Origin: a virus
Reading direction: 5' to 3' (one strand)
Length of the DNA: 22,670 nucleotides
IMG/VR virus record: IMGVR_UViG_3300036398_003866
Span: 1-22,670 of that record
Part shown: piece after piece, positions 6,478-17,846 of the stretch
Layout of the letters: each line of letters opens with the position of its first letter
Numbering within the stretch: position 1 is the first letter of the stretch
Program-made: the position numbers and the translations under genes
Notes under the pieces: generated by a model
What the model was told of the DNA's origin: nothing
Seen by the model: the letters and a program-made list of their open reading frames with translations, nothing else
The model's database searches: none

Positions 6478-6876
6478 TCAGCCGACCTTCGTGACGGCCG
6501 ACGATGCCCGGAAGTTGCCGGACACGGTGACGGCCTCGCCGACCCCGGTCGAGACCGAGAAGTCGAAGGTGGCGGTGCCGAACCAGTACTGGCCGGTGTT
6601 GCCGGTCGACGGGTACAGGTAGAAGCGGCGGGCGGCGCCGTCCGTGGCCGCCGTGTACAGCTGGGCGGTGGCGTCGTCGTAGAAGCCCGAGAACGATCCG
6701 GCGATGTCCGGCAGCCCGGCGACGTAGATCTTGTTCGTGTCACCGAAGCTGGTCACCTCGACGTCGTCGGTCGAGAAGTCCACCGACCAGGAGTTAAGGA
6801 ACGCGATCGGCTCGGCGGTGCCGGTCGAGGCGATGCCTGCGTAGAGGCGGCCGGACCGCCCGTGGATGCGGGGCAT
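6478..6876 (-). CDS. Major tail tube protein
   Basis: A 132-residue protein. The ATG at 6876 is chosen because GGAGGG lies about six bases upstream; an in-frame extension to 7002 would run into the upstream glycosyltransferase gene in another frame and is proline-rich nonsense. Features typical of siphovirus tube subunits are visible: VDFSTDDVEVTSFGDTNKIY (about 33-52), GLPDIAGSFSGFYDDA (about 55-70) and a second half of alternating hydrophobics (FYLYPS, YWFGTATFDFSVS, VTVSGNF). These fit the tube beta-barrel fold. The gene directly precedes the tail chaperone, as expected. An intrinsic-terminator-like hairpin lies just before its ribosome site. Confidence 0.85.
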   Translation of the reverse strand: MPRIHGRSGRLYAGIASTGTAEPIAFLNSWSVDFSTDDVEVTSFGDTNKIYVAGLPDIAGSFSGFYDDATAQLYTAATDGAARRFYLYPSTGNTGQYWFGTATFDFSVSTGVGEAVTVSGNFRASSAVTKVG

Positions 6877-6916: not shown

Positions 6917-7921
6917 TTACAACAGATCGAGGAGCCGAGCGGCGTTCGTGGTGAACGTCCGGTCGGCGACCGCAGCCCGGGCCTGGGCGGCGGCGTCGGC
7001 ACGATGGTCGTCGTGGGTGAGCCACCAGTCCAAGAGGTCCCGGACCTCGGCCGGCTCGGTGAACGTCGGCAGCATCGACAGGACCCGGTCGCCTTCGGGG
7101 CGGGGTTCCCGCAGGAAGAAGCAGCCGGTCGCGGCGAGCTCGACTTCCCGGGGGCCCATCGCCCAGCCGTCCGCCCCGGCGGAGCCTTCCTTGCGGTACA
7201 GGTTCAGCGACGCCCGAGCCGACTGGTACAGCACGGTGGTCTCGTCGTTGTCGAGGCAGTAGTCGTCAGGGTGCACGAGCCGCTCGGTGAACCAGGGGCC
7301 GGCGTCGGGCCAGTTGCCGCCGAGGCGCACGTCGAGGCCGGCGAGGTCGCAGGCTTCGAGGAACTTGATGCGGGACGGGTAGCCGGTGCCGACGAACGCG
7401 AGGTCGCAGGCCCATTCGGGGAGGCCCGGGCCGGGCCGGTGCAGCTGCGGGTCGTGGGCGTGGGGCACGTAGTAGGAGCGGGGCTGGTGTTTGCGGAACT
7501 CGGGAAGGTTCGTCGGGTCGTTGACGAGCACCACATCGAACAGGCTGGCCCGTTCGATCTGACGGTCGTCCTCGTAGGGCGATTCGGTGAACAGGGCGAC
7601 GAGCTTGTGACGGCGGGCCCGGATCACCTGGAGGATGTCGGGCGGGATGTAGAAGCCGCTCGTGACGAGGACCACGTCGGGCCAGAAGTCGTAGCAGGCC
7701 TCTTTCAGGCCGTTGGCGGCGAGGCGGATCCCGGCCTCGTTGTCGAACACTTGGCGCAGCTCGCCGTCTTTCTCGAGCATCGCCTGGGTGAAGAAGTCGA
7801 GCCGGTCGTCGAGCGCATACTCGACGACTTCGACGCCGAGCTGCTGGAACGCTCGTAGCCAGCCGTTGTGAACATCGAGCACGGAGAAGTGCGGGCCGGG
7901 CCGCACCATGAGGACCCTCAC
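6917..7921 (-). CDS. CgeB-like glycosyltransferase (GT-B fold)
   Basis: A 334-residue protein resembling the spore maturation CgeB / Glyco_trans_1_2 type. It has an N-terminal Rossmann-like start (VRVLMVRPGPHFSVLD), DVVLVTSGFYIPPDIL at about 82-97, LFTESPYEDDRQIERASLFD at about 110-129, DLAFVGTGYPSRIKFLEAC at about 173-191, and the nucleotide-sugar-site-like stretch GPREVELAATGCFFLRE at 256-272 with the conserved acidic residue. The typical C-terminal helix region (RDLLDWWL) follows. It would transfer a sugar from a nucleotide donor; the acceptor is unknown. It starts one base beyond the stop of the tail terminator gene with GTG (an in-frame ATG lies at 7909) and ends before a terminator-like hairpin. 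It interrupts the usual terminator-tube gene order, so it looks inserted. A virion protein substrate is an inference. Confidence 0.82.
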   Translation of the reverse strand: MRVLMVRPGPHFSVLDVHNGWLRAFQQLGVEVVEYALDDRLDFFTQAMLEKDGELRQVFDNEAGIRLAANGLKEACYDFWPDVVLVTSGFYIPPDILQVIRARRHKLVALFTESPYEDDRQIERASLFDVVLVNDPTNLPEFRKHQPRSYYVPHAHDPQLHRPGPGLPEWACDLAFVGTGYPSRIKFLEACDLAGLDVRLGGNWPDAGPWFTERLVHPDDYCLDNDETTVLYQSARASLNLYRKEGSAGADGWAMGPREVELAATGCFFLREPRPEGDRVLSMLPTFTEPAEVRDLLDWWLTHDDHRADAAAQARAAVADRTFTTNAARLLDLL

Positions 7922-8326
7922 TTAGAAGTAATCCTCCCGGCCGACCTGGCATTCGGTGATGGCGATCCAGCAGTCGAGCTCGTCGGCGTAGTCGACTTCC
8001 CACTGCGACGCCCCGAAGTACGGGTCGTTGGCACCCCGCCCGAGGATCGCGTCGACCTGGTCGATCGCCGTGTCGAGCCGCGCCTGGGTGATGTCCTGGG
8101 TGCCGTCGGCGCAGTAGATCCGCAGCTGGAACCGGAAGAACTCCGGGGTGACACCCACCGTGAGGATCGTCACCGAGGCCGGCTTGGCGATCTCGCCCGG
8201 GTTCGGTTCGTGACCGTAGACCCGGCTGATCGCCGTGAGCGTCGCCGCCGGGGCGCCGGTCGTGATGTTCGATGCGAGCCGGGCGAACAGGTCGGCCTTC
8301 GCGTTGGCGAGGCTGGTCGGGGCCAT
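7922..8326 (-). CDS. Tail terminator-like protein
   Basis: A 134-residue protein starting with the ATG at 8326, which forms TGATG with the connector stop. The upstream in-frame extension is an out-of-frame reading of the connector gene and is rejected. A helical N-terminus (ANAKADLFARLASN) is followed by a beta-rich body (ASVTILTVGVTPEFFRFQLRIYC at about 50-72), a helix (RLDTAIDQVDAILG) and a C-terminal edge (WEVDYADELDCW, then CQVGREDYF). This order resembles tail terminator or tail completion proteins of actinophages, which cap the tail tube and join it to the head. Its position after the connector supports this. Sequence conservation in the class is low, so an alternative neck role remains possible. 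Confidence 0.6.
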   Translation of the reverse strand: MAPTSLANAKADLFARLASNITTGAPAATLTAISRVYGHEPNPGEIAKPASVTILTVGVTPEFFRFQLRIYCADGTQDITQARLDTAIDQVDAILGRGANDPYFGASQWEVDYADELDCWIAITECQVGREDYF

Positions 8327-8952
8327 CAGGCGATCCCGGCCGGCCGGATGTATTCGGCGAGCAGTTCGATGACGGCCCGGGGGACCGCGAAGGCGGGGAT
8401 GCCGAGGCCGACGTCGTCGACGGGCCCGAAGGTGGAGGAGCCGACACCCTGCTCGCGGCGCCACAGATGCGAGAACATGATCGCGGCGCCCCGCTTGAAG
8501 ACCTCGTCGACGAGGGCGGTGGTGGCGTAGCGGCCGGCGACGTAGGTGACGACGACGGCACCGCCGGCGGGGAACGTGTACGGGCCACCCTGGGAGCGGC
8601 GGTAGATGCGGTACGGCGCTTCGGCGGTGATGTCGATCAAGAAGGCGTCGGTCGGCTTCGACGAGACGGACTCGCCGGTGAGGGTGGTGGCGCTGCCGTC
8701 CTGGTCGTACTCGATGCACGAGCTGACGGATGCGATCGGGGTGTGGCGCACGTCGATGAACGGGGCGGCACCGCAGTAGTGCGTCTCGTTGGAGATAGTG
8801 CGCCGCACGACATAGCCGCAGAGAGTGTCGATCCGACGGGAGACGCCGGTGATGTAGGCGGCGAGCTCGGTGTCGTAGGTGGTGTTCGACGCGTCGATGT
8901 TGACCGCCGCCTTCGCCTCGGTCAGCGAAATGATGTCGAGCGTGTCGGGCAT
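8326..8952 (-). CDS. Head-tail connector protein, gp6-like
   Basis: A 208-residue protein. The N-terminus SLTEAKAAVNID (about 8-19), followed by TYDTELAAYITGVSRRIDTL and the 'GYVV' segment, is the helical pattern of phage gp6-like / gp15-like head-tail connectors, which form a ring under the portal. A beta-rich insertion follows (HTPIASVSSCIEYD), then VVVTYVAGRYATT and a helical C-terminus. The ATG at 8952 has GAGG about five bases upstream, lying within and just after the stop of the glycosyltransferase gene. In typical phages this gene directly follows the capsid gene; here about 4.3 kb, mostly sugar enzymes, lies between them. Confidence 0.78.
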   Translation of the reverse strand: MPDTLDIISLTEAKAAVNIDASNTTYDTELAAYITGVSRRIDTLCGYVVRRTISNETHYCGAAPFIDVRHTPIASVSSCIEYDQDGSATTLTGESVSSKPTDAFLIDITAEAPYRIYRRSQGGPYTFPAGGAVVVTYVAGRYATTALVDEVFKRGAAIMFSHLWRREQGVGSSTFGPVDDVGLGIPAFAVPRAVIELLAEYIRPAGIA

Positions 8953-8959
8953 CTGGTCC

Positions 8960-9535
8960 TCACTTGCAGTCGTAGGGCAGCTGGCCGAGGCTCAGGTTCT
9001 GCCCGTGGAACCGGTAGGTCCAGGTGACCTTCGGTTCGCAGACGAACTCAGCGCCGACCTCGAGGGCCCGCTGCCAGAAGTCCCAGTCTTCGGCGCAGTC
9101 CCAGTCGGTCGTCTTGCGGTATCCGCCGAGCTCCTGCCAGAGGCTGGTGCGGACCAGCGCGCCGCCGCCCGGGATGAAGTTCCGGTGCCGCAACGTGTCG
9201 GCGTCGAACTCGGCGTTCGGGGTCCACCCGTCGCGACCTTCGCTGCGACACCAGGTGTACGTCACGTCGTACCAGCCGGCCGCCGCGGTGACCGTGGCGA
9301 GATGCTGCGGGTCGAGGAGGTCGTCGTCGCACATGACCATCAGCCAGCGGGTGGTCACTTGGGCGGCGAGCCGGTTGATGGTGGCGACGAATCCGTCGCG
9401 GGGATGATCGACGGCGATCAGATGCGCCCGGGGGGCGACGGTCTGGGCGGCCACCGAGGCGCACAACTCGCCGAGCATCCCGGATCGTTCCGGCATCGAC
9501 GCCGTCAGGATCGTGACGTCAGCGGTAGCGCGCAT
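8960..9535 (-). CDS. GT2-family glycosyltransferase (GT-A fold)
   Basis: A 191-residue protein from the ATG at 9535. The reading frame is open further upstream, but that part overlaps the preceding gene and is Thr/Pro-rich without family character. GT2 hallmarks are visible: N-terminal ADVTILTASMPERSGMLGEL, helix LCASVAAQT, the metal and nucleotide-sugar-binding CDDDLLDP with DDD at 70-72, GGGALVRTSLWQELGGYR at 123-140, and the catalytic-base-like EDWDFWQRA at 149-157. It is short for GT2 but has all core parts of the catalytic domain. It overlaps the GT32-like gene by 17 bases and ends seven bases before the connector gene. Donor and acceptor are unknown. Confidence 0.85.
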   Translation of the reverse strand: MRATADVTILTASMPERSGMLGELCASVAAQTVAPRAHLIAVDHPRDGFVATINRLAAQVTTRWLMVMCDDDLLDPQHLATVTAAAGWYDVTYTWCRSEGRDGWTPNAEFDADTLRHRNFIPGGGALVRTSLWQELGGYRKTTDWDCAEDWDFWQRALEVGAEFVCEPKVTWTYRFHGQNLSLGQLPYDCK

Positions 9536-10199
9536 CGAGGAACTCGTCGGTGGGCTGGTCGGACCAGCGGTCACGGGTGTGACCCCAGTGGTGCACCGCA
9601 TACGAGTCGGGATGGTCGGCCCACTCGTCGCGCATCGACTCGACGTCGTAGAGGACCGGGTTGAACGCCACCTTCGGAAAGACGTGGAGGAGGCCCGGGT
9701 TCGTGCGGTCCATCCAGCTCAACAGGTGCGGGCCGGTGACCCCGTTCATCGGCTCACCCTGAAGTTCCCGGTACCGGGGTTCGAGCTCGTCGAGCAGCCG
9801 ATCGAAGAACCTATGGCCCGGCTCGCAGCCCATCAGCGCGTTCGACAGGAACTCGCCGTCTTCCATCCCGGCGAACGCCGAGATCCCATCGAGGGGAATC
9901 TTCCGGAGGGCTTCCATGTCACAGTTCGCATAGATGCCACCGAACTCGAACAGCAGCTCGTACGACACCACGTCGGCCCGCTGCACATGCACCCCGAGCT
10001 CAGGCACCCCACCGCCCACGTTCACACCCCGACGGGCGATCTCGTCGAACACCCACTGGTTCCGCAGGGCCGGCAGATCATCCTCACGCCACAGGCGCAC
10101 CTCGTAGCCGAGACGCTCCCAGGTGCGGCCGAACTCCACCAGCTCCCGGCGCATCGGGGCCGGCCCGAACCAGATGCGGTGCACGACCTCGGGGATCAC
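9519..10199 (-). CDS. GT32-like (OCH1/capsular type) glycosyltransferase
   Basis: A 226-residue protein from the GTG at 10199, which forms GTGA with the stop of the SDR gene. The family start is clear: IPEVVHRIWFGPAPMRRELV at 2-21, then YEVRLWREDDLPAL, then RADVVSYELLFEFGGIYANC at about 74-93. In the Gly_transf_sug (GT32) family the last motif normally ends in a DXD that holds the metal and nucleotide sugar; here it reads Asn92-Cys-Asp94 then Met-Glu, so the first Asp is Asn. The C-terminal half has GVTGPHLLSWM and HHWGHTRDRW, matching the usual end of the family. It probably transfers a hexose. Activity with the altered DXD is uncertain, although the rest of the site is preserved. Confidence 0.82.
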   Translation of the reverse strand: MIPEVVHRIWFGPAPMRRELVEFGRTWERLGYEVRLWREDDLPALRNQWVFDEIARRGVNVGGGVPELGVHVQRADVVSYELLFEFGGIYANCDMEALRKIPLDGISAFAGMEDGEFLSNALMGCEPGHRFFDRLLDELEPRYRELQGEPMNGVTGPHLLSWMDRTNPGLLHVFPKVAFNPVLYDVESMRDEWADHPDSYAVHHWGHTRDRWSDQPTDEFLDARYR

Positions 10200-11101
10200 G
10201 GCTTCGACCAGGAGATGCCTTCGGCCTTGCGGTAGTACTCGACCGTCTCGGCCACCCCGTCGCGCAACGTCCGGAACGACGGGCAATGCCCGTACAGCGG
10301 CTCGAGTGTCACCGGATCACCGACGACGGTGGAGTCCTCCGGTTCTCCCGGGCGCATCGGCAGATGCGTGATCGTGCCGCCCGTGTACTCGGCGACCAGC
10401 TCGGCGATCTCGCGGACCGTCGGGGCGTACCCGGTGCCGGCCTCGTAGCAGAAGCCGTCCGGGTTCGGGCCGTGCAGCATCGCCCGCACGAACACTTCGG
10501 CGACATCAGCGACGTGGATCATGTCCATCCGTTGGGCGCCCGACCCGTAGACCTCGATCGGGTCGCCGGCCAAGCCGCGGCAGATGAACGCCGGCATGAT
10601 CTTGCGGACCTTGCTGTGCCCGTACGGAGCGGCGACCGACTGGCCAGGCCCGTAGGCGTTCAACGCCCGGACCACAGCGATGCGGGTACCCCGCTCGGTG
10701 TTGTACATCTCTGCGAACCGTTCGGCACACGTCTTCGAGATCGAATAGCCGTTGATCATCCAGTAGTTCCCGACCGCGGCGAGCGCGGCGGGGACCTGGT
10801 ACTGGGCGACCGCCTCGAACACGTTGAGTGCCCCGAGGATGTTCGTCTCCGCCGCCGGCCGAGGGTTGGCGATCGTCTCCTGGGTGCCGAGCACCGCGGC
10901 GAGATGGATGACCCCGTCGGCGTGGGCGACCGCCTCGGTCACCGCCACCGGATCCCGCACATCGCCCAGAATCAGCTCACACCCAGCCGGTGGCTTCCGG
11001 ACATGCCGATCAAAAATCACGGGCGTCAGATCGCGCTGTAGCAGCGCTGCGACGACGTGAGACCCGATGAACCCGGAACCTCCGGTGACCAGCACGTTCA
11101 T
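10196..11101 (-). CDS. NAD-dependent nucleotide-sugar epimerase/dehydratase (extended SDR)
   Basis: A 301-residue protein of typical length for extended short-chain dehydrogenases. Residues 6-13 (TGGSGFIG) are the GxxGxxG dinucleotide motif; Asp31 at the end of the second strand suggests NAD rather than NADP; GDVRD (46-50) and HLAAV (66-70) are classic. The catalytic Tyr119 and Lys123 are in YSISK. NAYGPGQ at about 149-155 is the substrate-domain signature. It resembles UDP-glucose 4-epimerase and related dehydratases, so it would make or convert an activated sugar for the neighbouring transferases in the cytoplasm. It overlaps the GT2 gene upstream (ATGA) and the GT32-like gene downstream (GTGA). 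Exact substrate cannot be read from the sequence. Confidence 0.9.
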   Translation of the reverse strand: MNVLVTGGSGFIGSHVVAALLQRDLTPVIFDRHVRKPPAGCELILGDVRDPVAVTEAVAHADGVIHLAAVLGTQETIANPRPAAETNILGALNVFEAVAQYQVPAALAAVGNYWMINGYSISKTCAERFAEMYNTERGTRIAVVRALNAYGPGQSVAAPYGHSKVRKIMPAFICRGLAGDPIEVYGSGAQRMDMIHVADVAEVFVRAMLHGPNPDGFCYEAGTGYAPTVREIAELVAEYTGGTITHLPMRPGEPEDSTVVGDPVTLEPLYGHCPSFRTLRDGVAETVEYYRKAEGISWSKP

Positions 11102-11766
11102 GATGCCCCCAGCAGCTCGCGCACCGGCTCGAGATCCCAGCCGTGCATCTCCACAGTCCTGTTCCCCCAGGTGGAGGTGTGACCGTTGTGATCAGCGAGG
11201 TCGATCTGCGCCACCCGGTAGCCGGCCTCGTGGAGCCGCTGGCAGGTGGGCACGTCACCCCAGCCTTGGATCTTCTCGGGGACCGGGCCGATCTTCGGCC
11301 AGTCCCCCGGGCGGAACGACCAGGACGCCGCCCCGGTGCTGGCCCGGATCAACCCGGGGACCTGCCCGTAGCGGACCCGTTCCCGGATCGTGTTCCACTC
11401 GAACATCGGCTCGAGATGACAGCCGGTGAGGATCACGTCGGCGGGCGCTTCGGCCCACCAGTCCCGCAGCCGGTCAGCCCACCCGGGCCGCCAGCCCATG
11501 TCGTCATCGGACAGGACGCACAGATCTGCGTCGGTTCCGATGGCCACACGAGCACACAGGTTCGTGCCGTGCCCGCAGGTGGACAGCCGGTCCTTGGAGA
11601 CGTAGCCGCCGAGCTCGGCGACGAGCTCCGACGTGCCGTCCGTCGACCCGTTGTCGACCGGGATCACCCGGGCGTCCCGGGCCAGGGACTGATAACAGTC
11701 CCAGAACAGCGACTCCCGGTCGTTCAAGAACAGGTTGTGGCACAGGATCGCTGCGGTGATCCTCAC
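11098..11766 (-). CDS. GT2-family glycosyltransferase (GT-A fold)
   Basis: A 222-residue protein from the GTG at 11766, which forms GTGA with the GT4 stop. Motifs: RITAAILCHN at the start, PVDNGSTDGTSELV at 36-49 (the nucleotide-binding DNGSTDGT), GTNLCARVA, then LCVLSDDDMGWRPGWADRL at 82-100 with the DDD metal-binding site. The C-terminal half has a GWGDVPTCQRLHEAGYRV stretch, where the GT2 catalytic-base region (often ED) reads GD, then HNGHTSTW. The protein is compact and lacks membrane segments, so it should act on a soluble acceptor. It has no close resemblance to the second GT2 in the cassette (8960-9535) beyond the shared fold, so the two are not a recent duplication. Confidence 0.87.
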   Translation of the reverse strand: MRITAAILCHNLFLNDRESLFWDCYQSLARDARVIPVDNGSTDGTSELVAELGGYVSKDRLSTCGHGTNLCARVAIGTDADLCVLSDDDMGWRPGWADRLRDWWAEAPADVILTGCHLEPMFEWNTIRERVRYGQVPGLIRASTGAASWSFRPGDWPKIGPVPEKIQGWGDVPTCQRLHEAGYRVAQIDLADHNGHTSTWGNRTVEMHGWDLEPVRELLGAS

Positions 11767-12923
11767 AGCCGGATCGGCTCCACCGTCGGCACCAGGCCCT
11801 GCAGCTGCTCGAGTGCCGGCCGCCAGTACTGGGCGTACACCGAGTCGGCGTCGTACTGCTCGGCGAAGGTGCGGCACTGCGGGCCGAGCTCGGCGAGGAG
11901 GTCCCGGTTCTCGTTGGCGTGCCGGAGTGCATCGGCGATGTCGTCGATGATCGGGGTGCAGAAGTACGCGAGCTGGGCGGGATCCCAGCGGGGTTGCGCC
12001 AGCGTCTTGTAGCCGGGCCCGGCAAGTTCGGCCTGGGCGGAGAAGTCGGTGACGATCACCGGCGTCCCGCAGGCTTGCGCCTCGATCGTCGGGATCCCGA
12101 ACCCTTCGCCCATGCTCGGGAACAACAAGACGTCGAACGCCGAGTACAGGGTGGCGAGCTCGGCCTGGCCGATCATCCCCGAGCGGTACCGGTAGTCGTC
12201 GACGAACAGCAGATTCTCGGGGCTGATCCCGACGCCGGTGGCGAGGGCCCGCAGGTCCATGCCGCCGAGGGCGCCGCGCTGTTCCGCATGCACGTACAGC
12301 AGGGCGGTCGGGTCGGTGTCGAGCAGCCGGCGGAACGCGAGGAACGCTTCGGGGTACGCCTTGCGGCACGGCTCCAACGAGTTGTTCGTCGAGCACATCC
12401 CGACCAGGAACCGGTCGTCGAGACCGAGGCGGGCCTTCGCATCGGCGACCGGCTGGAAGACCTCGGTGTCGATCCCGTGGGGGACGTACAGCGGGTCGTG
12501 ACCGTCGCCTTGCAGCTGACGGCGACCGAACTCGCTCATGGCGATCGGCATCGAACCGGACTGCTGGAAGAACCGGGCGACGAGCCGAGGCATCGGCGCA
12601 TGGTCGATCGGCACCCACGACGCCAACGTGAACTCCGACAGGGCCGGATGATCCAACGTCCACACGTCGTAGAGGGTCAACAGCAAGCCGGGCTCACCGT
12701 CGAACCAGTGCAACGCATGGGCGCAGATCACGTCGTTGGAGTAACCCGACCCGGACGGGTAGACCCGCACCCCGTCCCAGTCGCGCACCCCACCCTGCAA
12801 CCCGTAGTTGGCGATGACCGCCACGTCGTGGCCGTCGGCCACCAGGCGAGGCACGACCTGGGCGGTCTGCTGCCCGTACCCGGTCGGCGCCCACGGCGCA
12901 TTCGAGAACCAGGCGATCTTCAC
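11763..12923 (-). CDS. GT4-family glycosyltransferase (GT-B fold)
   Basis: A 386-residue protein from the GTG at 12923, overlapping the 65-aa gene by GTGA. The N-domain begins VKIAWFSNAPWAPTGYGQQT, with the glycine-rich loop of GT4 enzymes; PHGID at 148-152 marks the linker to the C-domain. RFLVGMCSTN (171-180) starts the second Rossmann domain. EGFGIPTIEAQACGTPVI (273-290) is the EX7E donor-site motif with both Glu residues (273 and 281). It is soluble, with no signal or membrane helix, and would use a nucleotide sugar. It opens the five-gene sugar cassette inserted after the capsid gene. The fold assignment is very secure; donor and acceptor are unknown. Confidence 0.9.
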   Translation of the reverse strand: MKIAWFSNAPWAPTGYGQQTAQVVPRLVADGHDVAVIANYGLQGGVRDWDGVRVYPSGSGYSNDVICAHALHWFDGEPGLLLTLYDVWTLDHPALSEFTLASWVPIDHAPMPRLVARFFQQSGSMPIAMSEFGRRQLQGDGHDPLYVPHGIDTEVFQPVADAKARLGLDDRFLVGMCSTNNSLEPCRKAYPEAFLAFRRLLDTDPTALLYVHAEQRGALGGMDLRALATGVGISPENLLFVDDYRYRSGMIGQAELATLYSAFDVLLFPSMGEGFGIPTIEAQACGTPVIVTDFSAQAELAGPGYKTLAQPRWDPAQLAYFCTPIIDDIADALRHANENRDLLAELGPQCRTFAEQYDADSVYAQYWRPALEQLQGLVPTVEPIRL

Positions 12924-13117
12924 CGGGTCTCCGCCGGGGCAGACACCCGAGTCTCCTTCGCCGGACGGCCCACCTTCTTGCGGGTCACGACGACCCACGA
13001 CGAGCCGGCCGGGACGACGGAGATGATCTCCTCCCGGGCCTCGAGTCGCTTCACCGCGTCGGCGAGCTGCTCGGGCGCAGGAGAGTGTTCGCTGATCGAG
13101 ACGATGTGAGCAGGCAC
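12920..13117 (-). CDS. 65-aa protein of unknown function leading the sugar cassette
   Basis: The GTG at 13117 is chosen because AAGGAG lies four bases upstream; a longer reading to 13228 would translate two hairpins and is proline-rich. I do not recognise the protein. Residues 1-10 (VPAHIVSISE) and about 31-46 (IISVVPAGSSWVVVTR) look like beta strands around a helix (PEQLADAVKRLEARE), so a small alpha/beta fold is likely. The tail KKVGRPAKETR has a GRP core flanked by basic residues, like an AT-hook, but one such core alone proves nothing. Its stop overlaps the GT4 start (GTGA). It is the first gene after the capsid and its hairpins, so it could serve mainly as a translational leader for the cassette. 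Confidence 0.6.
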   Translation of the reverse strand: MPAHIVSISEHSPAPEQLADAVKRLEAREEIISVVPAGSSWVVVTRKKVGRPAKETRVSAPAETR

Positions 13118-13194: not shown

Positions 13195-13232
13195 GTGTGT
13201 GGGGGACCGGGGATCGCCCGGCCCCCACACGC
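13195..13232 (-). terminator. Long hairpin directly downstream of the capsid gene
   Basis: Outer arms GTGTGGGGG (13197-13205) and CCCCCACAC (13222-13230) pair perfectly. They extend by a G-U and a G-C pair at the base and, past one bulged A, by five more pairs (13207-13211 with 13217-13221) around the loop GATCG. It starts about 14 bases after the capsid stop codon on the minus strand. The stem is far stronger than chance. The downstream tract is CCTTCTCCG rather than a U-run, so it may attenuate or rho-terminate capsid transcripts, or protect the capsid mRNA 3' end, rather than act as a classical intrinsic terminator. Confidence 0.5.
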
Positions 13233-13245
13233 GCACGAGGGCGGA

Positions 13246-14511
13246 TCAGGTGGTCGGGGCCTTGAGGAACTTCACGTGGCCGTCCACACCGCCGACGTAG
13301 TCGGAGTCGCTGCGCAGGACGGTCCGGAAGGTCACCAGGTCCGAGCTGAACGCGAACTCGTCGCTGCGCTCGAACCGGACGTTGGCCACGTCCCGGATGT
13401 AGAAGTTCGAGAAGTTCCCGAACGCCATGTGGGTCCCACCCGCCGTCGCGAACGTCGTGACGTTGGGGTCGAGCACCATCGGGTAGCCGAGCAGCCGGTC
13501 AGGCTCGCCTGCGGTCAGCGTCGGCTCCCACAGCGGCCGGCCCGTCGTGTCGGTGATCCGACGGATCTTCGCCGCGTTGGTGTCGAGCGTGAACCAGTAG
13601 GCACCGAGCGACCGGGCCTGCGGGTTGACCGAGTAGACCAGGTCCACGAGGTTGCCGTAGGACGGCACCCCGGTGGCTGCGGTCTGGGCGGTCGCCCCGA
13701 CGGACTGGGTCGTCATGATGCCCTTGGGCTTCGAGGAACCCGAGCCGGTGACGTAGTCGCTGTCGGTCACCCGGGCGATGGCCTGGGCGGTGTCCCGGGC
13801 GATGAACCCGAGCATGTCGATGCCCGTGTCGGCCAGCAGCTCGCTCGACACCTGGGTGAGCACACCGTACTTCCAGGCGTTGAGGGTGGTCTTGCCGAAG
13901 GTCGGCTCGACCTCGCCGATGGCCGTGCCCTCACCGCGGATCGCCGCCGTCGAGCGGGTCGCCACGTGGGGGATCTCGAGGGCCTCACCCGACTGGGTCG
14001 TGAGCACCGTTACGTTGAGGTTCCGGGCCCCGGTGTAGAACTCGACGTACTCGACCAGCTGCCGCTGGAACGACGTCGGCACCGTGTTGCCGCCGAGGGC
14101 TGCGGTGTCCTCGAGGAGGTCACGCAGCTCGCGGGCGTCGGCACCCGAACGGATCAGGCGCTTCTCCCGCCACGCCGGGCCGAGGTCGAGGTCGATGCTG
14201 CGGATCTCGCCGCGGAGGAAGCGGGTCATCTCGTCGACCTGCTTCTCGGACCGGCGGGTCATCTCGGCCTCGGCGATGACCGGCTCGTACGCGGCCCGGG
14301 CCACGGAGGCCTCGCGCTCACGCTGCTCGATGTCGAGGAACGACCGGATCTGGCCGTCCTTCTCGTCGATGTCCCGGTTGATGGCGTCCCACTTGGCCTG
14401 CTCCTCGCCGGTGAGCTCGCGCGCCTCGCGCTCCGCCACCTCGAGCAGCTCCTTGGCCTCGTGCCACGCACGCTGCCGCGCGTCGCGCAGCTGGTTCAGG
14501 TAGTTCTGCAT
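13246..14511 (-). CDS. Major capsid protein, HK97 fold
   Basis: A 421-residue protein. Residues 1-110 are highly charged and helical (RDARQRAWHEAKELLEVAER, KWDAINRDIDEKDGQIRSFL), the scaffold-like delta domain removed by the protease in HK97-type phages. The capsid fold follows: ALGGNTVPTSFQRQLVEYVE at about 138-157, then the E-loop and P-domain (SGEALEIPHV, EVEPTFGKTTLNAWKYGVLT, VSSELLADTGIDMLGFIARD) and the A-domain with SDYVTGSGSSKPKGIM, LVDLVYSVNPQ, LLGYPMVLDPN and FGNFSNFYIRDV. AAGGA lies about eight bases before the ATG. The exact cleavage site is not visible. Upstream are the protease and two small genes; downstream is the hairpin region that separates it from the sugar cassette. Confidence 0.95.
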   Translation of the reverse strand: MQNYLNQLRDARQRAWHEAKELLEVAEREARELTGEEQAKWDAINRDIDEKDGQIRSFLDIEQREREASVARAAYEPVIAEAEMTRRSEKQVDEMTRFLRGEIRSIDLDLGPAWREKRLIRSGADARELRDLLEDTAALGGNTVPTSFQRQLVEYVEFYTGARNLNVTVLTTQSGEALEIPHVATRSTAAIRGEGTAIGEVEPTFGKTTLNAWKYGVLTQVSSELLADTGIDMLGFIARDTAQAIARVTDSDYVTGSGSSKPKGIMTTQSVGATAQTAATGVPSYGNLVDLVYSVNPQARSLGAYWFTLDTNAAKIRRITDTTGRPLWEPTLTAGEPDRLLGYPMVLDPNVTTFATAGGTHMAFGNFSNFYIRDVANVRFERSDEFAFSSDLVTFRTVLRSDSDYVGGVDGHVKFLKAPTT

Positions 14512-15335: not shown

Positions 15336-16024
15336 GCCGCCGGGCCCAGCTGCTTCGCCAGCAACGCCAGGCGCAACGCCACCAGGCCCGACGTGGTGCG
15401 CTCCTCCACCAGCTCCGGCACCAAGACCTCGGCGACCTCGGCCTCGAGCTCGTCGGGGAGACGACCCGACCGGATCGCCTCCACCAGCACCCCGGCGTCC
15501 ACGCCCCGCTTGCCGGCCAGATGCTCCACCGCCCGGGTCGCGACCTCCGTGTCGAGGTACGCCGGGTACGTCACCGGCGAGACGTCACCGTTGTGGAGGC
15601 TCACTTCCCGCAACGTCCGCAACGGATAGCCGTCATCGGTGCGATCCCACCGGTCGTCGATCACCCGGAACCCGAAGCTCGACTGGGTGATGTCACCCCG
15701 CTCGATCGAGACCATCAGATCCCGGCCGTACGACGTGTCGGGGATCTTGACCTCGTAGGCCAAACCCCGGTCGTCTTCCTCGAGGTACAACGTGCCGGCC
15801 TTCGACCGGCCGAGGATCAAGCTGGCGTCATGGTTGAACAGGGCCCGCACGTCGGCTTCGCCGATCGTCTTACGGAACGCACCCGGAGCGATGCGCTCCA
15901 CGAACCCGCCGAGGTCCTGCGACAGCCGGTTGAAGACGGCGGCATGCCCCGCGATGCGGAACTCGTCGCCGACCGCCCGGGCCTCGAACTCGGTGGAGTA
16001 GTAACGGCGCTCACTCGGGCGCAT
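15332..16024 (-). CDS. Prohead maturation protease, HK97 (S78) type
   Basis: A 230-residue protein that should cleave the capsid delta domain in the prohead. The family pattern is clear: the N-terminal beta-strand FEARAVGDEFRIAGHAAVFN, then ERIAPGAFRKTIG (43-55), ALFNHDASLILGR (61-73) with the catalytic His65, QSSFGFRV (114-121) with the active-site Ser115 or Ser116, and REVSLHNGDVSPVTYPAY (139-156) containing the conserved acidic residue Glu140. The C-terminal 60 residues are helical and probably serve as scaffold. The ATG at 16024 has GAGGTG close upstream and overlaps the 611-aa gene by 14 bases. Its partner substrate is the capsid protein two genes downstream. Confidence 0.92.
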   Translation of the reverse strand: MRPSERRYYSTEFEARAVGDEFRIAGHAAVFNRLSQDLGGFVERIAPGAFRKTIGEADVRALFNHDASLILGRSKAGTLYLEEDDRGLAYEVKIPDTSYGRDLMVSIERGDITQSSFGFRVIDDRWDRTDDGYPLRTLREVSLHNGDVSPVTYPAYLDTEVATRAVEHLAGKRGVDAGVLVEAIRSGRLPDELEAEVAEVLVPELVEERTTSGLVALRLALLAKQLGPAA

Positions 16025-17846
16025 TGGTCACCTCACTGATCGCAGCAGCCACAGCCCCCACTAGGCGTTGCTGATGGATCCAACGGGCGGCCTTCGGCCG
16101 CCAGACTCGTTGCACTGCCGAGCAGGCCGCTCGTGTCTCGACCCGTCGACCGCTTCGCACCACACACGCCGACACGGCCCGCACCGGCGCCGCCCGACAT
16201 TCGACCAACGTGCCCCAGCACACCGCCCGAGCCACGACCTCGAAATGGCTGCGCACCGCTGGCGTCGCCACCGGCAGCTGCACCGTGGCCGGCCCGACGA
16301 TGACCCGGACCGAAATGACGAACCGGGTCCGTTGCCGGTACAGCGGCCCGAGCGGTTTCGGCTTCGGATACCAGCTCGAGGCGGGCGGCAGCGGCAAGCC
16401 ACCACCGGCCGAGATGGTTCCCGAACCGTCGAGCAGGCCAGCACCGGAACGGATCGTCGACCCGCCGGCAGCGACCGCACCCGACCCGGCCAGGAGGCCC
16501 GCAGCCGAACGGATCGCCGACCCGGAGGCCGACACGGTGCCGGCCCCGACGATCGTCGCCGCACCGGGTTCGCCGCCGGTAGCCGACAGAGCCCCGGATC
16601 CGGCGAGCTCGGCGCCACCCGACATGAGCCGGCTGCCGGTCGCAGTCACCGCACCCGACCCGGCGATCGCCGCCTGGCCGGTCTTGGCGACATCACTCGA
16701 AGCGCTGATCGTCCCGGTTCCGGCGACGGCAGCCTGTCCGAGCGCGGTCCGCAGACCGCTCCCCGACACACTTCCGTCGCCGACGACCGTCGCCGCACCG
16801 GCCGCCACACGAACCCCGGCCGCCTCGACCGTCCCGGTCCCAGCGACCGCACCGCCCGCGGCGCGCACTGCGACACCCGACCCGGAGACCGCACCCGACC
16901 CGGCCAACGTCGCCAAACCGACCCGGGCCGCAACGCCCGACCCGACGAGCTGACCGTCCCCGGCGACCGCACCGGCACCGAGCCGCACGGCAACCGCCGC
17001 CGCCGACACCGCCCCGGCCCCAGCCAGTGCACCCGCCCGGCCCCGCACTGCGAGACCCGACGCCGACACGGCCCCGTCGCCCGCCACGCTGCCGGTACGG
17101 GACCTGGTCGCAGAACCCGACCCGGAGACCTGACCGTCCCCAGCGACCGCACCCGATCCGCCGCGGCTCGTCACCGCCCGGATCTCGACCGCATGCATCA
17201 GCATCCGGTCGTTCGCCGCCGACGCCGACCCGTCGACCGACGTGTCATTGTCGTTGCGGAACTCGAACGACAGGCGCATCGTGTCGCCGCCGGACGCCTG
17301 CTGGGCGTTCAGACCGGAGACGATCGCGAAGCCGGAACCCGCCGTGTTGGTGAGTGTCCCGCCCGCATTGTCGTACGAGAGGAACCAGCCGCCCGTCGCG
17401 TTGCTCGACGACGCAAACGCACCCAGCGTCGCAGTGACCGTGTCGGCCGTCGTCGATGCGACCGCCGACTGCACCATGCCCCGGTCAGCACCCCGGGCCA
17501 CATCCGTCAGCTCGGCGACACCCCAGATCGCACCGTCAGCCGTCTGACCCGAAGGCACCGCACCCGAGAACGTGATCGCCCCGGCCGACGCCGACGAATC
17601 CGCATAGCCGGCCCACACGGCCATCGACGGCTGCGTGGTACCACCCCCCACGTCGTTGCCGACCCGGGACCAGGTGATGTTGTTGCCGCTGATCGAAGGG
17701 ACCAGCGGCGAACCACCCAGGTCATGGACCGCAAACGCGACCAGGTAGATCTTCCCGGCCGTGGGCGTCCATGACGCAGTGGTGAAATCCCTGGCGTCGG
17801 TGTCGGTCCCGGCGACGTTGAGGGCTGACGCAGCGGAGACAGGCAT
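16011..17846 (-). CDS. Repeat-containing putative virion surface protein (611 aa)
   Basis: Not assigned to a known family. Three parts are visible. Residues 1-225 are Gly/Ala/Ser/Thr-rich and beta-like (KIYLVAFAVHDLGG, GNNITWSRVG, MLMHAVEIRAV), similar in style to beta-sandwich surface domains of environmental phages. Residues 233-482 are twelve tandem units of 20 residues (one has 18) plus a partial thirteenth, with consensus roughly hydrophobic-AG-x-G-x-V-S-G-x-G-x-A-x-R-x-x-A-G. Residues about 486-611 begin PASSWYPKPKPLGP and become Arg-rich with four cysteines (543, 550, 561, 575). GAGGGGGG about four bases before the ATG is a strong ribosome site. Being coded between portal and protease suggests a head-associated fibre, but a tail fibre is possible. 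Its many Ser/Thr and small residues make it a candidate glycan acceptor, which is inference. Confidence 0.72.
   Translation of the reverse strand: MPVSAASALNVAGTDTDARDFTTASWTPTAGKIYLVAFAVHDLGGSPLVPSISGNNITWSRVGNDVGGGTTQPSMAVWAGYADSSASAGAITFSGAVPSGQTADGAIWGVAELTDVARGADRGMVQSAVASTTADTVTATLGAFASSSNATGGWFLSYDNAGGTLTNTAGSGFAIVSGLNAQQASGGDTMRLSFEFRNDNDTSVDGSASAANDRMLMHAVEIRAVTSRGGSGAVAGDGQVSGSGSATRSRTGSVAGDGAVSASGLAVRGRAGALAGAGAVSAAAVAVRLGAGAVAGDGQLVGSGVAARVGLATLAGSGAVSGSGVAVRAAGGAVAGTGTVEAAGVRVAAGAATVVGDGSVSGSGLRTALGQAAVAGTGTISASSDVAKTGQAAIAGSGAVTATGSRLMSGGAELAGSGALSATGGEPGAATIVGAGTVSASGSAIRSAAGLLAGSGAVAAGGSTIRSGAGLLDGSGTISAGGGLPLPPASSWYPKPKPLGPLYRQRTRFVISVRVIVGPATVQLPVATPAVRSHFEVVARAVCWGTLVECRAAPVRAVSACVVRSGRRVETRAACSAVQRVWRPKAARWIHQQRLVGAVAAAISEVTNAPE
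16398..17150 (-). repeat. Twelve and a half tandem 60-base (20-aa) repeats
   Basis: Units start at residues 233, 253, 273, 293, 313, 333, 353, 373, 393, 413, 431, 451 and 471 of the 611-aa protein, so the period is 60 bases with a single 54-base unit. Each unit carries an 'AGxGxV' core followed by an 'SxSG' turn and a variable half, often with one Arg. At DNA level a 17-base string ACCGCACCCGACCCGGC recurs on the plus strand at 16474, 16648 and 16888, with spacings of 174 and 240 bases that match the unit period. Units are diverged, so expansion is not very recent. Confidence 0.85.

Follow-up and report, generated by a model that had tools for sequence, protein, structure and literature searches.

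Why does a phage carry a set of sugar enzymes in the midst of its head genes, and on what would these enzymes act? The question is raised by the virus contig IMGVR_UViG_3300036398_003866, a fragment of a genome analysed here over its 22,670 bases (the window), in which five sugar genes and a 65-aa open reading frame (ORF) stand between the genes for the major capsid protein (MCP) and a gp6-like neck protein. The five genes encode a GT4 glycosyltransferase, a GT2 enzyme (GT2a), an extended short-chain dehydrogenase/reductase (SDR), a GT32-like enzyme and a second GT2 (GT2b), and a sixth glycosyltransferase gene sits outside this cassette, between the tail-completion and major-tail genes. That the cassette might be peculiar to the window phage could be rejected, as the same slot is filled in many other phages. 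From their content and order, the genes probably specify a phage-encoded pathway that glycosylates a virion protein, started by GT4 and elaborated by variable genes.

An alignment of five GT4 proteins matched at least 576 stretches in IMG/VR, of which the best 80 were fetched, and our own profiles for structural and sugar genes were run across all ORFs of the loci. The MCP gene was found directly upstream of GT4 in 70 of the 85 distinct loci fetched by GT4. In 12 of the other 15 the contig starts 231 nt or less from GT4 and the upstream gene is unreadable, and the final three are of a type whose capsid protein is a different one. A neck gene followed downstream in 46 of the 70 and in 12 of the 15, the remaining contigs mostly ending too early. 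Many GT4-bearing viruses are interrelated and these locus counts are therefore not independent. A control set not chosen for transferases consisted of 80 loci fetched by a capsid alignment, 59 of them with both capsid and neck genes readable; here GT4 was present in 45 slots (1.3-3.9 kb), GT2 only in two, and 12 slots were empty, with 60-108 nt between the MCP and neck genes. The two genes are thus neighbours when the slot is empty, as the original prediction, an earlier note made on the DNA of the window, had held. Cassettes reduced to GT4 alone were also encountered (L060 and, more clearly, L156 and L157).

When the filled or empty state was placed on the capsid tree it changed 3 times, compared to 11.1 times in shuffles, and GT4 distances correlated with head-gene distances at about 0.8-0.86, which argues for GT4 being an inherited head gene and not a freely moving passenger. 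GT4 tracks all head genes about equally, and the capsid is thus not singled out by the distance correlations. A close pair on the capsid tree is formed by the empty L178 and the GT4-only L156/L157, whose DNA flanking the insertion on either side agrees at 73-76%.

The remaining contents of the slot fell into about 50 ORF clusters, some of which are miscalled frames. The recognised transferases were of GT2, GT4, GT17-like and TOD1/MUCI70-like types, accompanied by SDRs, methyltransferases (including CmcI-like and rhamnosyl methyltransferase types), a UDP-galactopyranose mutase, a UDP-glucose dehydrogenase-like protein, a 2OG-Fe(II) oxygenase and a pair made up of a Gfo/Idh oxidoreductase and a hexapeptide acyltransferase. 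The third commonest cluster, a TagD-like cytidylyltransferase in 23 loci (L144:7176-7598 and 22 others), suggests that a CDP-activated alcohol or sugar may enter into the decoration. By its predicted enzymes, the repertoire belongs to a glycan pathway whose outer sugars vary. Such variable contents, together with occasional ORFs not recognisable as sugar enzymes, might also be expected if the capsid-neck junction were a tolerated insertion site collecting unrelated enzymes without a shared target. This explanation is very improbable, however, since GT4 is the constant first gene alongside almost any content and follows the capsid tree, and since most of the other recognised contents are sugar enzymes.

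Among 84,980 bacterial genomes there were 21 matches to the GT4 alignment, distributed over about seven phyla (Actinobacteria, Gammaproteobacteria, Gemmatimonadota, Planctomycetes, Chloroflexi, Firmicutes, Saccharibacteria and others); nearly all of them are metagenome bins, and the host labels are therefore unsure. Wherever the flanks were readable these GT4 genes lay among phage head or tail genes, a few of the weakest, partial matches being outside this comparison, and GT4 is a phage family. The capsids encoded upstream of it belong to phrog_10 (the type of the window), phrog_267 and phrog_371/4523. In L105, GT4 is positioned between the tail terminator and the major tail protein, the place held by the sixth gene in the window, and in L116 it lies among what appear, by reading only, to be connector and head-tail joining genes. 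A tentative proposal, which we consider somewhat less probable than its negation, is that the phage-specific GT4 is a near-core head gene across some seven phyla and several capsid families that starts a capsid or neck glycan, with the variable genes behind it serving as an interchangeable module by which the glycan coat of the virion is diversified. If true, this would parallel, in prokaryotes, the variable glycan shields known from animal viruses.

The same distribution bears on the alternative that the enzymes modify the host envelope, be it wall polysaccharide or glycolipid, and so serve superinfection exclusion, adsorption or release. Phage transferases are known to act in this manner in lysogens, the role was named as one option for freshwater actinophages (PMC10202952), and slots elsewhere harbour cytidylyltransferase-like, UDP-galactopyranose mutase and rhamnosyl methyltransferase genes of types associated with envelope glycans. 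Nevertheless, we regard it as unlikely, because phages whose hosts differ greatly in their envelopes have the same GT4 behind the capsid gene, because all six sugar enzymes of the window are devoid of transmembrane segments, and because the genes occupy a late structural location and not a lysogeny region. No gtrA/gtrB-type pair was found either: the flippase GtrA and the bactoprenol transferase GtrB, which define serotype conversion by gtrABC, were not detected in the slot.

Glycosylation of phage virions is experimentally documented in a few mycobacteriophages. In these phages, glycans are reported on the capsid and the tail tube, whose C-termini are the reported modified sites, and the transferases are reported to be encoded near the genome end (PMC11256854, PMC12619734, citing Freeman et al. 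2023, PMID 37329881). Mycobacteriophage Che8 likewise represents actinobacterial siphophages with phage-encoded glycosyltransferases, and phage-encoded soluble glycosyltransferases, one mark of virion glycosylation of the Che8 type, are present in the window. However, the Che8 transferases gp108-110 (a GT2 fused to a methyltransferase, a GT2 and a GT25-like enzyme) are located at the right genome end, and its capsid and adaptor genes adjoin whereas those of the window are separated by the cassette. The sole similarity is between the GT2 domain of gp108 and GT2b (E 7e-12); comparison of gp108-110 revealed no relative of GT4, the SDR, the GT32-like protein or the sixth gene. If virion glycosylation is the right reading, the cassette of the window would work like the Che8 system without being a member of it by descent.

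Comparable slots occur in two named phages. Pontimonas phage phiPsal1 (MG835450) has the order MCP, GT4, methyltransferase (reverse), GT2 and neck in the same slot, with a GT4 38% identical to that of the window over its full length and a capsid 31% identical; its cassette is smaller and lacks the SDR, the GT32 and the sixth gene, and the function of the slot was not studied in the phage's description (PMC6106888). In Microcystis phage Mae-JY09 the order is MCP, small protein, GT4, GT2-like, SDR and connector, so that GT4, GT2 and SDR follow each other in the same slot and sequence as in the window, although the capsid is not detectably similar, the host is a cyanobacterium and identity of the SDR is only about 26%. 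Microbacterium phage Magritte and Streptomyces phages Kela and Satis, on the other hand, carry an SDR of the window subfamily (52-57% identical) beside a transferase, and Magritte also has a GT32-like gene with the residues N-C-D, but this pair is situated upstream of the terminase or beside a tailspike and not behind the capsid gene.

For transferase-bearing Planktophila phages isolated in 2023, the authors suggested a role in protecting DNA or in superinfection exclusion (PMC10202952). The first of these proposals corresponds to a further alternative in which the enzymes glycosylate phage DNA and shield it against host nucleases. DNA transferases do exist in phages, and L096, a phage sharing only the sixth gene, has a GDP-mannose dehydratase and a QueC-like gene; moreover, the window is a fragment, and hypermodification genes could lie outside it. 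The alternative is nonetheless quite improbable, as the genes sit with capsid genes and not with replication genes, and as no base-hydroxymethylation or hypermodification gene is annotated in the complete phiPsal1 genome, only an N6 methylase. That annotation also holds no envelope-glycan (gtr-type) gene set. The gene content of phiPsal1 and the spread of GT4 over hosts with different envelopes thus weaken both the DNA and the envelope alternatives, and in contrast to the suggestions made for the Planktophila phages the gene order argues for the virion as the first target to test.

In a literature search that left subscription papers largely outside its reach, no description of the capsid-neck slot came to light. 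With virion glycosylation as its function, the slot is a new and widespread form of a kind of system already known. Among phages infecting abundant aquatic bacteria, sugar-coated ones would then be common and recognisable by gene order alone, and natural pairs of filled and empty relatives would make the purpose of phage glycans directly testable.

Decoration of the virion would take place inside the infected cell during late expression. GT4, whose gene in nearly every case comes first behind the capsid gene and is sometimes alone there, would transfer the initial sugar of a host nucleotide sugar donor to an acceptor that is most likely the MCP, or else a head-tail junction or tail tube protein. 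GT2a, the GT32-like enzyme, GT2b and the GT-B enzyme encoded after the tail completion gene may add further sugars, unless some of them decorate a second structural protein, and the SDR would alter one of the sugar donors. The order of these steps is suggested by the order and constancy of the genes, and the benefit may lie in shielding, adsorption or stability. The original prediction of a dedicated virion-decoration pathway thus remains the best-supported function, in view of the GT4 family following the capsid gene across many phyla and at least three capsid families, of soluble and conserved enzymes with a complete GT4 catalytic centre, and of the gene content of phiPsal1, whose architecture is the same; the acceptor protein and the sugars are conjectural, and so is the heteropolymeric glycan, the relatives carrying anything from one to several transferases. 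Its suggested comparison of phages with and without the cassette became feasible once filled and empty relatives had been found, and yielded the first of several points that weigh against virion glycosylation. The Ser/Thr content of the capsid and tail-tube C-termini did not differ visibly between filled and empty phages, nor did that of the C-termini of tail completion and neck proteins, and because these termini are alike no acceptor is named. Furthermore, the evidence for a glycan comes from the genes and is indirect, and the position and co-inheritance of GT4 could reflect mere linkage in a head operon. Finally, N-C-D replaces DXD in the GT32-like enzyme and the SDR is without its usual Ser/Thr, so that some steps of the pathway may be non-standard.

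A strong, terminator-like hairpin (GTGTGGGGGCCGGG..CCCCGGTCCCCCACAC) directly follows the capsid stop codon of the window. Such a hairpin, often with a T run, was present in nearly all relatives inspected (about 45 loci), in filled and empty slots alike, and belongs to the capsid gene and not to the cassette. Read-through is likely how the sugar enzymes are made, in smaller amounts than the capsid protein, and the hairpin may be what holds their expression down. The loop recurs in two types, resembling GTTGTAGGTTGC or GAACACGCAGGGC, and in an ordinary terminator such conservation of the loop is unusual. An Rfam search with the hairpin from 8 sources gave no match.

The individual enzymes differ in how closely they adhere to their families. 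GT4 matches phrog_2170 over its full length (5e-37) and is of the retaining GT-B type with the motif E273-x7-E281. The catalytic E273 is kept in 156 and E281 in all of 157 sequences, and these two along with R187, K188 and H149 are each found in at least 155; this retention leads us to expect a functional retaining GT-B enzyme. The SDR has the nucleotide motif TGxxGxxG (TGGSGFIG) and YxxxK (YSISK, Y119-x3-K123). Its counterpart of the SSxxVYG segment is shortened, reads AVGNYWMINGYSISK (AVGNYWMING) and is without the active-site Ser/Thr, as is similarly the case in Magritte, Kela and the more distant relative L019. The reaction of the SDR is consequently uncertain: its proposed role as converter of a donor is plausible, but naming it an epimerase would be premature. 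A phage SDR subfamily with AVGNxWxxxxYSISK or similar can be delineated (window 10196-11101, L013:2393-3307, L016:5622-6572), and this short-segment subfamily, common to the window and to Microbacterium and Streptomyces phages, adjoins a transferase in each.

At the DXD position the GT32-like protein reads N-C-D in the window, L005 and Magritte, N-T-D in L019 and the canonical D-M-D in L103, and N-C-D thus retains the second Asp. Its predicted structure (pLDDT 51.5) was too poor and was left unused. Sequence searches of the PDB with this protein and with the sixth gene gave no match. The AlphaFold model of the sixth protein (pLDDT 76.5) matches the GT-B enzymes PimA, BshA and PimB', and in L096 and L098 the gene is again found, with 50% identity, between those for tail completion and the tail tube. 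In the first of these phages (L096:663-3427), the GDP-mannose dehydratase gene is followed by one that by eye resembles QueC (deazaguanine) and by a small DUF6884-like gene, upstream of the tail genes. GT2b shares 38% identity with its counterpart in L019 (L019:11447-12010) while most neighbours share 60-73%; it may have been exchanged between phages or be evolving fast, as expected of an outer-sugar transferase.

Related IMG/VR contigs were gathered with the capsid, neck and GT32-like proteins as queries. All six sugar genes stand in unchanged order, with identities of 74-84%, in L005 and in the 21.5-kb contig 3300046028_008083, shorter contigs retain all cassette genes within the stretch they cover, and L019 has the same six-gene set with identities of 65% for GT4, 67% for the sixth gene and, as mentioned, far lower for GT2b. 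The pN/pS ratios between close relatives were 0.23-0.53 for the enzymes and 0.19-0.56 for structural genes, and on these sequence comparisons the six sugar genes are under purifying selection.

All clear genes of the window, from the terminase through a lysin-like protein, are on the minus strand (Table 1). The cassette of the original prediction, at 12923-8960 on the minus strand, is confirmed in coordinates, gene order and strand, as are its short overlaps of 4 nt or 17 nt: the junctions are, in order, GTGA (65-aa ORF and GT4), GTGA, ATGA, GTGA and a 17-nt overlap of the GT32-like gene and GT2b, and a 7-nt gap separates GT2b from the neck gene. The labels GT4, GT2, SDR and GT2 were borne out by Pfam with scores above the curated cut-offs, and the GT32-like label scored 21.4 against a cut-off of 23 bits. 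The statement of four different transferase folds went too far, the enzymes having only two: GT-A in the GT2 enzymes and probably the GT32-like one, and GT-B in GT4 and the sixth gene product. The sixth glycosyltransferase (7921-6917), the 65-aa ORF (13117-12920) and the hairpin (13230-13197) are additions to that account. A DNA-level search of phage records with the window returned the SDR as the sole match.

Table 1. Positions of the cassette, its neighbours and the hairpin in the window.
Feature	Position	Strand	Basis and remarks
Major capsid protein (MCP), HK97 fold, Phage_capsid	13246..14511	-	Pfam 3e-53, phrog_10
Terminator-like hairpin	13197..13230	-	Directly after capsid stop, upstream of cassette; fold and comparison of ~45 loci
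65-aa ORF	12920..13117	-	Overlaps GT4 start by GTGA; 68-98% in relatives L002-L009
GT4 glycosyltransferase, first cassette enzyme	11763..12923	-	Pfam 4e-13, phrog_2170; GTG start
GT2 glycosyltransferase a (GT2a)	11098..11766	-	Pfam 1e-6
Extended SDR, nucleotide-sugar epimerase/dehydratase-like	10196..11101	-	Pfam 5e-41, phrog_540; PDB relatives
GT32-like glycosyltransferase (Gly_transf_sug)	9519..10199	-	Just below Pfam cut-off
GT2 glycosyltransferase b (GT2b)	8960..9535	-	Pfam 3e-6, phrog_14775
gp6-like neck/connector protein	8326..8952	-	phrog_442 head-tail adaptor 6e-15
Tail completion/terminator-like protein	7922..8326	-	Own HMM including phiPsal1 tail completion protein, plus position
Sixth glycosyltransferase, Glyco_trans_1_2/DUF3880, GT-B fold	6917..7921	-	Pfam 4e-13; AlphaFold model
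Major tail protein	6478..6876	-	phrog_10528 5e-10

A small ORF similar in appearance to the 65-aa ORF precedes GT4 in a phage binned with Planctomycetes (L103:7744-8004). Elsewhere in the window, 16011-17846 encodes a 611-aa protein with a high content of Gly, Ser and Ala, in which a sequence of the type AVAGDGxVSGSGxAxR is repeated imperfectly many times. It is flanked by a head protein (phrog_240) and the protease. Both genes are absent in L003 to L007, and the repeat protein is a possible candidate for an acceptor or a fibre.

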